From assembly GCA_013821455.1 (NCBI GenBank), contig JACDGS010000009.1, positions 1 to 64,000 of the forward strand: DNA of 64,000 bases, given 5' to 3'. A program made the translations under genes and the position numbers. Position 1 is the first letter of the stretch, and every line of letters starts with the position of its first letter. The notes beneath the pieces are model-generated. The model did no database searches. It was not told the DNA's origin and saw nothing but the letters and a program-made list of their open reading frames with translations. Origin of the DNA: Chthoniobacterales bacterium (lineage in GTDB: Bacteria; Verrucomicrobiota; Verrucomicrobiia; Chthoniobacterales; UBA10450). Below are positions 38,499 to 40,700 of the stretch, in pieces.

Positions 38499-39524
38499 AT
38501 GCCCGACCGCCAATTCAGCGACACCATCGCCATCGATCCGGAATTAATCCCCGGCGCGCGCAACGCCATCCGCGATTGCCTGCGGCTCCAGCCTAACGAG
38601 CGCATCACCATCATCACCGATGAGGCGACGCGCGAGATCGCCGCTGCCTTGCAGGAACAGGTCGAGGAAGTCGGCTCCGAGCACGCCGTCTTCGTCCTCG
38701 AAAATTACGCCGAGCGTCCGCTCACCAACATGCCGCGCATCATTCTCGACGACCTGAACACCTCGCAGGTCTCGATCTTTTGCGCCCAAACCCAGCGCGG
38801 CGAACTCGGCTCTCGCATGCAGATGAGCGAGATCGTAAACAAAAATCACATCCGCCACGGCCACATGGTGAACATCAGCCACCAGATCATGCTCGAGGGA
38901 ATGCGGGCCGATTTCCGCGCGATCGACGCGCACAGCCAGATCCTGGTCGAGCGCGCGCGCGCCGCCCGGCGCATCCATTGCACCAACCCCGCCGGCACGG
39001 ATTACACCGCCGATCTCTCCGCGAATCTGCGCTGGCTCAAAACCAGCGGCATCATCACCCCGGAGAAATGGGGCAACCTTCCGGGCGGCGAGATTTTCAC
39101 CTCGCCCTTCGATAGCAACGGCCGCTTCGTCGTCGATGGAGTGGTCGGCGATTACCTTTGCCAGAAATACGGCGACATCCAGAAAACCCCTCTCACGATC
39201 GAGGTGCGCGACAACCGCATTAAATCGTTAGGCTGTGACAACCAGGAGCTGCTCGAAGAATTCGCCGCCTACACCAACACCGACGAAAACAGCAACCGCG
39301 TCGGCGAGTTCGCGGTCGGTACCAACACCGCCTGCACCCACGTCATCGGCAACATTTTGCAAGACGAAAAAATCCCCGGCATCCACATCGCATTCGGCCA
39401 TCCCTACGCCGAACACACCGGCCAGACCTGGCTTTCGAAAACGCACATCGACTGCGTCGGCCGCGACTTCGACATCTGGTTCGACGACGACCAGGTGATG
39501 CGCAAAGGCAAGTTTTTGGTATAA
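38499..39524 (+). CDS. M29-like (leucyl) aminopeptidase
   Basis: The 341-residue protein shows the M29 metal ligands and surrounding motifs: GNLPGGEIFTSP, RVGEFAVGTN, GIHIAFGHPYAEHTG, and KTHIDCVGRDFDIWFD. The Glu, Glu, His, His and Asp residues fit the two-metal site of thermophilic aminopeptidases. It has no signal peptide, so it is cytoplasmic. The small conserved gene after it is only 7 bases away. Confidence 0.85.
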   Translation: MPDRQFSDTIAIDPELIPGARNAIRDCLRLQPNERITIITDEATREIAAALQEQVEEVGSEHAVFVLENYAERPLTNMPRIILDDLNTSQVSIFCAQTQRGELGSRMQMSEIVNKNHIRHGHMVNISHQIMLEGMRADFRAIDAHSQILVERARAARRIHCTNPAGTDYTADLSANLRWLKTSGIITPEKWGNLPGGEIFTSPFDSNGRFVVDGVVGDYLCQKYGDIQKTPLTIEVRDNRIKSLGCDNQELLEEFAAYTNTDENSNRVGEFAVGTNTACTHVIGNILQDEKIPGIHIAFGHPYAEHTGQTWLSKTHIDCVGRDFDIWFDDDQVMRKGKFLV

Positions 39525-39531
39525 TACGCAA

Positions 39532-39750
39532 ATGATCTCCGACGTGCGCGAACATCTCGAGCGGGTGCCATTCGTGCCGTTTGTCATTCGCACTTCCGAC
39601 GGACACGAGTATTCCGTTCCGACCGTGGATCACGCGTATATCACGCCGCGAGGCAACCGTGTGGTTGCGGTCGCTGACGATGGCGGCGTCGCGGTTCTCG
39701 GGCCGCTGCACATCAACAGCATTATCGAACCGGCGACAGACCGCGCCTGA
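39532..39750 (+). CDS. Small conserved-looking hypothetical protein
   Basis: The 72-residue product (start MISDVREHLERVPFVPFVIR) has a compact alpha-beta look with the sequence TSDGHEYSVPTVDHAYITPR, similar to short housekeeping-type hypotheticals that follow larger genes. I do not recognise a characterised family. It is probably co-transcribed with the aminopeptidase gene. Confidence 0.6.
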   Translation: MISDVREHLERVPFVPFVIRTSDGHEYSVPTVDHAYITPRGNRVVAVADDGGVAVLGPLHINSIIEPATDRA

Positions 39751-39780
39751 GTTTGCCGCATGCGCTCCTTCTGAATGCGC

Positions 39781-40095
39781 GTCGTAGTCGCGCAAGTCAT
39801 CGACAGGTCGCTGCAACTCTCCGACAGATCACTTCAACTCGCCGCCGAACCGTTTCAATCGCGCCTAGGCTTCACAAAACTCTGCGTCATCCCGGCAAAA
39901 GTAGGCTCCGCCCGGCCACAACTCCGCGCTAGTCAACCGCAACTGCGCGTCAGCCTATTCCAAGCGCGCGTTGATCGCTCGCAAACGCGCGTCACACCAT
40001 AAAAAGCGCGAGTCGCCGCTGGTCAAGTGCGCTTAAATTTCGCCAGACTCGTCGCCGGCCGACCAAAAGTGCGCATCCAGCCTTCCAATTGCGCG
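39781..40095. repeat. Degenerate 21-bp tandem array, about 15 units
   Basis: Cutting the sequence every 21 bases from 39781 leaves a clear column pattern. Position 1 is G in about 11 of 15 units and position 3 is usually C. Positions 13-15 are (C/A)AA in 13 units (AGA in unit 13). Positions 20-21 are mostly GC. Units differ elsewhere. In one frame the array reads as heptapeptides with Gln or Lys at place 5 and often Arg at place 7, broken by a stop in unit 11. No unit is interrupted by spacers. Confidence 0.8.
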
Positions 40096-40181
40096 TCGGA
40101 CGGCATAGCACAGCTGAACCTCGGCCCATCGCGGTGCATGAGGCTTGTCCACCGCACAGTTCAGCGGGTATCGTCGCCAAC

Positions 40182-40700
40182 ATGACAGCTTCCTCCGTGG
40201 CCCAATACCTCGCCGCCCTCCCCGCGGATCGCCGCGCCGCGCTCAGCGCCGTGCGCAAAGCGATCAATGAGAATCTGCCGGACGGATATGAGGAGGGCAT
40301 GCAGTTCGGGATGATCGGCTGGTACGTCCCGCTCTCCCTCTATCCGGCGGGCTATGGCGAGAATCCCAAAGTGCCGCTGCCATTGGTTGCGCTCGCCTCG
40401 CAGAAGTCGGGGATGGTGTTGCATTGCATCGGCCTCTACATGAATCCCACTCTCTCCACCTGGTTCACCAGCGAATACCAGAAGAGCGGCAAGAAGCTCG
40501 ACATGGGTAAAGGTTGCGTCCGCTTCAATAAGTTGGAGGACCTGGCTCTCGACGTGGTCGGCCGCACCGTTGCGCGCGTGTCCGTGGAGGAGCACATAGC
40601 CAATTACCAGGCGGCGAGGGCCCTCTTGGGCAAGGGAAAGAGCAGCGCAAAGGAAGGCGCCAGAAGGTCCGCGGTGAAGGCGGCGAAACCGAAGAAGTGA
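40182..40700 (+). CDS. DUF1801-domain protein
   Basis: ATG 40182 gives 172 residues with the DUF1801 pattern: MTASSVAQYLAALPADRRAA, ENLPDGYEEGMQFGMIGWYV, PLPLVALASQKSGMVLHCIG and KLDMGKGCVRFNKLEDL. The family is small, cytoplasmic and of unproven role, some members being compared with frataxin-like iron-binding proteins. The last ~25 residues are Lys/Ala-rich. The first gene after the repeat array; it lacks the GCCTAACGA word. Confidence 0.85.
   Translation: MTASSVAQYLAALPADRRAALSAVRKAINENLPDGYEEGMQFGMIGWYVPLSLYPAGYGENPKVPLPLVALASQKSGMVLHCIGLYMNPTLSTWFTSEYQKSGKKLDMGKGCVRFNKLEDLALDVVGRTVARVSVEEHIANYQAARALLGKGKSSAKEGARRSAVKAAKPKK

Follow-up and report, generated by a model that had tools for sequence, protein, structure and literature searches.

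A degenerate array of 21-bp units upstream of a DUF1801 gene in a Chthoniobacterales genome

A degenerate array of about 16 tandem 21-bp units lies upstream of the start codon of a DUF1801 gene in the window, that is, the whole 64-kb stretch of DNA analysed here, which is part of contig C82 in a 4.3-Mb draft genome. The genome is that of a soil bacterium of the Verrucomicrobiota, and the closest relatives with names are Chthoniobacterales. Twenty-one base pairs correspond to two turns of B-DNA, or to seven codons. We give an even chance to the array being a non-coding cis element, composed of about 16 tandem, same-strand, degenerate sites for one DNA-binding protein, helically phased and placed upstream of DUF1801. 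In such an element the 21-bp spacing would align all sites along one face of the helix. Individually weak sites would fill up cooperatively and build a nucleoprotein complex, wrapped or filament-like, immediately 5′ of the DUF1801 gene, which the element probably regulates. The analysis shows the period and register of the array, its constrained columns, its lack of coding capacity and of RNA structure, its place ahead of a start codon, the return of the same period in other arrays of this genome and its relatives, and constraint measured in two related sets of arrays; we infer from these protein binding as the source of the constraint, cooperativity between sites, and DUF1801 as the presumed target. 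If arrays of this kind are bound, they would be nucleoprotein platforms that owe their cohesion more to spacing than to sequence identity.

Anatomy of the array

The array and its neighbours in the window are the following.

39775-40099, + strand: degenerate array, one partial and 15 full 21-bp units (about 16), from autocorrelation and column profile
39793-40079, + strand: 13-bp conserved core of each unit, [CA]AAnT[CG]nGCGTC[GA], from column information and heterogeneity against neutral simulations
40085-40097, + strand: final core, CAATTGCGCGTCG, 20 bp and not 21 bp past the previous core, read from the sequence
38499-39524, + strand: M29 aminopeptidase gene (PF02073), used as anchor for orthologous loci
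39532-39750, + strand: 72-aa ORF with tblastn homologues in relatives and no Pfam family, its stop about 25 bp 5′ of the array
40182-40700, + strand: DUF1801 gene (PF08818, E 4e-12), its start 82-86 bp past the array

The array sits between the 72-aa ORF, itself 3′ of the aminopeptidase gene, and the DUF1801 gene. Its start is placed near 39775 because the first full unit follows a partial one, GAATGCGCGTCG, and the core reaches about 40099. Units follow the consensus GTC[GA]nnCnnnCn[CA]AAnT[CG]nGC; the first copy of the core begins at 39793 and the others follow each 21 bp up to 40066, the remaining 8 bp of every unit being nearly free. The original prediction of an exact 21-base register holds for all steps but the last, where the spacing is 20 bp because the last unit is displaced by one base. 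Column counts bear out its description of about 15 units with (C/A)AA at places 13-15, GC at 20-21 and G.C at 1-3. Among the 15 units, column 13 is C in nine and A in six, columns 14 and 15 are A in 14 units each, column 20 is G in 10 and column 21 C in 13, and columns 1 and 3 are G and C, respectively, in 11 units each. Two further columns, missing from that description, are column 17 (T in 10/15) and column 4 (G in seven, A in seven). Columns 5, 6, 8-10, 12 and 16 are near random, and about half of the columns vary freely. Mean identity between units is about 45%, and the G+C content of the array is 59%.

Enrichment of the 21-base autocorrelation over shuffled sequence had been set as a test of the array, and it was found: identity at lag 21 was 0.454 in 39781-40096 (0.453 at lag 42 and 0.443 at lag 63), against a mean of 0.265 and a maximum of 0.366 in dinucleotide shuffles (n=5000). 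The register held 12.5 bits of information (shuffled mean 3.1, maximum 5.2; 2000 shuffles), and the array was the strongest periodic signal in the whole 64 kb for the periods scanned, 9 to 59. Tandem Repeats Finder detected only 2.8 copies in it (39787-39844). Arrays of this kind keep their period and a few columns, with less than half of their bases in common, and therefore similarity-based repeat finders would miss them in most genomes. A 7-bp period is absent (autocorrelation 0.201 at lag 7 and 0.199 at lag 14), and ancestry from a heptamer array was rejected on this ground. Dyad symmetry of the unit was not supported (P 0.94).

Coding capacity, RNA and DNA shape

It is highly improbable that the array is a heptad-repeat protein gene, decayed or orphan. 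A seven-codon period would suit such a gene, and true coding heptads do yield signals of this type: in 0.5 Mb scanned of E. coli and Sinorhizobium, the one array found reads as a coding heptad repeat (pSymB). In the best frame, 108 codons contain a single stop, and the stop reported earlier in unit 11 is a TAA at 40000-40002. A frame with a single stop is not exceptional here, because stops number between 1 and 6 in each of the six frames. In this best frame all 13 codons for Gln or Lys end in A, with P about 1e-5 as computed from the codon usage of ten reference ORFs in the window, where CAG is commoner than CAA. The array has no third-position GC excess and shows neither the open frame nor the codon-like conservation of a coding heptad. 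Among the arrays of genome G038 described below, the wobble columns of the open frame are not at the fastest-changing places. The array is non-coding, and the suggestion of an 'old, decayed coding repeat' is not supported.

The array has no detectable RNA structure either, as neither strand folds better than shuffles (z +0.10 and +0.85), and it has no match in Rfam. An active transcribed strand, for example a long, C-rich, unstructured RNA serving as a Rho-loading region or as a protein-bound DUF1801 leader, would agree with this lack of folding, with a C-over-G excess on the + strand that is matched by 0.8% of 318-base stretches, and with an array that begins shortly after a stop codon and has no intrinsic terminator within it or directly after it. 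It leaves the exact two-turn period and the choice of AA as the most conserved pair unaccounted for; moreover, C enrichment in the upstream gene is almost as strong (C/G 1.38 vs 1.52 in the array), and the 21-bp array on contig C11 (L114) is not C-rich. We regard it as quite unlikely. No promoter- or terminator-like site was found inside or directly adjoining the array; a weak terminator-like site lies upstream of it, inside the 72-aa ORF.

The period could also reflect selection on shape, with helix-phased AA steps giving an intrinsically bent stretch. In a wedge model, no other 316-bp stretch of the window is predicted to be as curved as the array, whose predicted phased curvature exceeds that of column-permuted arrays (P 0.014). 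An AA/TT signal is present at 10.5 bp and absent at 10 or 11. Against this explanation, none of the other three 21-bp arrays in the genome reaches significance for curvature (P 0.08-0.30), and the T at column 17 and the GC at columns 20-21 are unnecessary for bending. Shape as the sole object of selection is very unlikely in our estimate. It is, however, compatible with a protein-bound array rather than exclusive of it, and the predicted phased curvature fits wrapping of the array.

Neutral decay

We simulated neutral histories, star-like or by duplication, with uniform mutation over sites and matched to the observed mean identity. Column heterogeneity as large as that of the array arose in 0-3% of runs, and in at most 1.5% in all settings but one; together with a neighbour similarity as low as observed, it arose in ≤0.13%. 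Adjacent units show no significant excess of similarity over distant ones (P 0.20), and closeness to the consensus varies among units (P 0.0005). For the window array, neutral decay of a tandem repeat is rejected; its pattern on the whole fits repeated, independently constrained copies of a motif. The selection for period that the original prediction had proposed is supported by this rejection, by a register kept over 15 units, and by a related pair of arrays (see below) in which motif columns change more slowly and no indel is seen.

An old, non-coding minisatellite, born from tandem duplication and since decayed without function, is an unlikely explanation for the array. It would agree with the lineage specificity reported in the next section and with the behaviour of other arrays of this period in the order, those of genus g19, in which whole units come and go and neighbouring units resemble each other, as they also do in the L195 array of the present genome. 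The simulations speak against it, and it leaves unexplained both a period of 21 common to independent arrays and the unequal column rates in related arrays.

Distribution of the array and its motif

Searches with blastn and with a profile recovered the window array alone among 58 relatives, under strict filters that may lose weak matches. Against 83 genomes of the family, the profile again found it alone at E<=0.005, and the weak matches examined in relatives are not arrays. No array follows the aminopeptidase gene at the loci examined in the same genus, and none lies upstream of the DUF1801 homologues with readable flanks, nor upstream of a DUF1801 paralogue on contig C21 of the same genome (91% identical in DNA). 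The array is lineage-specific; its absence from relatives is provisional, because this genome and most relatives are drafts. Constraint on the window array itself is readable from its columns only. A plasmid or phage origin was rejected, as no plasmid sequence matched the array at the DNA level. A genome-wide role of the motif as a single site was likewise rejected, with 528 sites per Mb vs 448 in shuffles, which is no clear over-representation. This count, the lineage specificity, the DUF1801 homologues without arrays and the absence from the window of the 240-aa protein family described below all speak against an array of protein-binding sites.

Several DUF1801-related fragments, one with a stop, lie on a single contig (G000:C117:10352-11720) and resemble decayed copies.

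Other arrays of the same period

At least three further non-coding 21-bp arrays, with other motifs, were found in a 1.04-Mb sample (about 24%) of the same genome, using a period-scan threshold that gave zero matches in 3.1 Mb of block-shuffled sequence.

Contig C11, L114:2943-3160: 21-bp array outside long ORFs, from the period scan
Contig C21, L195:3527-3700: 21-bp array outside long ORFs, from the period scan
Contig C15, L118:5738-6080: 21-bp array outside long ORFs, from the period scan

In this sample, and over periods 15-63, three of the four non-window arrays outside long ORFs have period 21. The expectation of related arrays elsewhere was borne out for the period and not for the columns: no motif is common to the four 21-bp arrays of the genome, and a shared core AACTC was dropped when permutation gave it no support. 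Relatives of the gene adjoining the L118 array have no arrays, and about 0.55 Mb scanned in relatives of the family held no array outside ORFs.

In genus g19, which belongs to another family of the order, dispersed 21-bp arrays are many, and several have palindromic units and strong folding.

L027:2229-2486: g19 array, fold z -9.9
L187:9460-9690: g19 array
L189:2268-2550: g19 array
L190:3162-3450: g19 array
L174: g19 array, fold z to -16
L176, L178 and L180-L185: further g19 arrays

Orthologous g19 arrays differ by gain or loss of whole units, and their conserved columns changed at 13/299 places vs 25/184 for variable columns (P 4e-4). The arrays compared (L027, L174, L176) resemble the window array in period, intergenic position and constrained columns, whereas the window array has neither their palindromic units nor their strong folding. 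Kinship was rejected on these two differences and on a motif similarity at chance level, and g19 arrays are set apart here as another class that has the period in common. A leader-like conserved stretch, CGGTCGTCTTCTCTGTAGAAGCGC, precedes g19 arrays (L027:2190-2230 and the left flanks of L187, L189 and L190); strings similar to it flank L174 and L176. In genome G058, several arrays lie at contig ends.

Arrays upstream of an unnamed protein family

The C11 array lies upstream of a gene for a 241-aa protein with no match in Pfam, NCBIfam or PHROG. The family to which it belongs (240-aa family) has a Pro/Thr-rich C-terminal tail. Genome G038, from another family of the order, yielded four homologues (24-31% identical), and each of them likewise has a 21-bp array upstream.

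L114:3320-4042 (own genome, C11): 240-aa family member, 21-bp array upstream
L297:1495-2190 (G038): 240-aa family member, 21-bp array upstream
L300:1498-2196, - strand (G038): 240-aa family member, 21-bp array upstream
L304:1504-2232, - strand (G038): 240-aa family member, 21-bp array upstream
L305:1453-2178 (G038): 240-aa family member, 21-bp array upstream

Over these five members the distance from array to start codon is 74-167 bp and the motif is on the coding strand. Coding-strand motifs are common to L114 and L304, and to L297, L300 and L305 (P 0.001-0.009). Homologues without an array are L301, the second one of the own genome, and partial ones in G002 and G004; the family has no match in plasmids or phages.

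The arrays of L297 and L300 align without gaps over 315 bp. Changes between them affect 28/165 motif columns (17%) and 60/150 other columns (40%) (P=6e-6); the two classes of column were defined from one member of the pair, L297, according to how well its units conserve each column. This difference in rates is the best evidence for selection on motif and register in such arrays.

A 240-aa family member beside the window array was sought and rejected, as none is present in the window. The window motif is similar to the L305 motif (P 0.015 before correction for five comparisons), and its distance to the start codon is similar to that of the family-linked arrays, but the gene is DUF1801. Since the window array adjoins DUF1801 and the window holds no 240-aa member, its link to the family is one of analogy only. 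Being linked to several such arrays, the family is a direct candidate for experiments on a binding protein. It is possible, though doubtful, that degenerate 21-bp arrays form an undescribed class of chromosomal elements in Chthoniobacterales, each with its own motif, with the period selected and the sequence drifting, some tied to 240-aa proteins that bind or use them; the window array would then be one among perhaps a dozen or more in its genome. No description of degenerate, non-coding 21-bp arrays in Verrucomicrobiota was found in the literature, which is weak evidence as subscription journals were mostly outside the search.

Comparison with known systems

Plasmid iterons are direct repeats of 17-22 bp, on the same strand and in helical phase, to which Rep proteins bind cooperatively in a strongly spacing-dependent manner; cooperativity is abolished when two sites are shifted by half a turn, and listed origins have two to seven of them (PMC4980987). 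The window array shares the same-strand direct repeats, the unit length and the phase. It differs in lying on a chromosomal draft contig, in having about 16 units and in conserving about half of its columns. No Rep_3 initiator (Rep3_N, PF01051) was matched in the genome, although positive controls were detected.

In type II/III partition systems (parC/tubC), a tandem block lies upstream of a gene or operon, a layout that the arrays linked to the 240-aa family share. The binding protein of parC winds the repeats, which lie upstream of their operon, into a superhelix and also represses the promoter (PMC5016525). Unlike them, the window array is beside DUF1801, with no ParM/TubZ-like partner among the neighbours scanned (aminopeptidase, 72-aa ORF, DUF1801 and a TPR/cyclase protein). 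Our best reading is that the array would work like iterons or parC, by analogy and with no claim of membership in either.

TIGR arrays alternate two repeats, each 8-12 nt long, with spacers of 9 nt, giving guides of 36 nt, and are served by a Nop-domain Tas protein (PMC12045711). Like them, the window array alternates short conserved and variable stretches, and its motif differs from that of other loci; unlike them, it has one motif and a period of 21, with no edge and loop repeats. No Nop domain (PF01798) was matched in the genome, the positive controls again being detected. TIGR and Rep_3 identities were discarded along with Rfam for lack of a match. CRISPR repeats are near-identical, 25-36 nt long and separated by spacers of similar size (PMC12045711). 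The array, with its low unit identity and shorter period, has no well-conserved repeat with spacers, and is not a CRISPR array, as had been stated from the outset.

REP elements have been recorded in Verrucomicrobia (PMC3733652), and Y1 transposases are present in the genome. A REP unit is palindromic and 20-40 bp long; the window array shows neither dyad symmetry nor folding.

A survey with SPADE found heptamers to be the most abundant intergenic DNA repeats and tolerated about 10% noise for DNA (PMC6344855); the units of the window array diverge far more than this, and arrays like it would therefore escape the survey. Heptamer repeats (STRR) are also short and intergenic and are present in this genome, but the window array is without their 7-bp period. 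We observed GTTGAAC-like and AAAGTAG-like intergenic heptamer tandem repeats at L111:9950-10050 and 10337 and at L216:9927. Other tandem arrays outside long ORFs include one of 41 bp with nearly identical units (L227:3054) and, in Candidatus Sulfotelmatobacter, one of 18 bp, TTCGGTTCTTAAGCCTCG (L060:2261-2400). An 11-bp tandem array, TGAGTTATGTG, lies outside ORFs on contig C82 itself (L103:15100-15300; contig of about 99 kb). In G050, three 42-bp arrays have nearly identical units (L093:19542-19830, L088:43-290 and L099:7692-7940), and the 42-bp unit of L093 is made of two related 21-bp halves.
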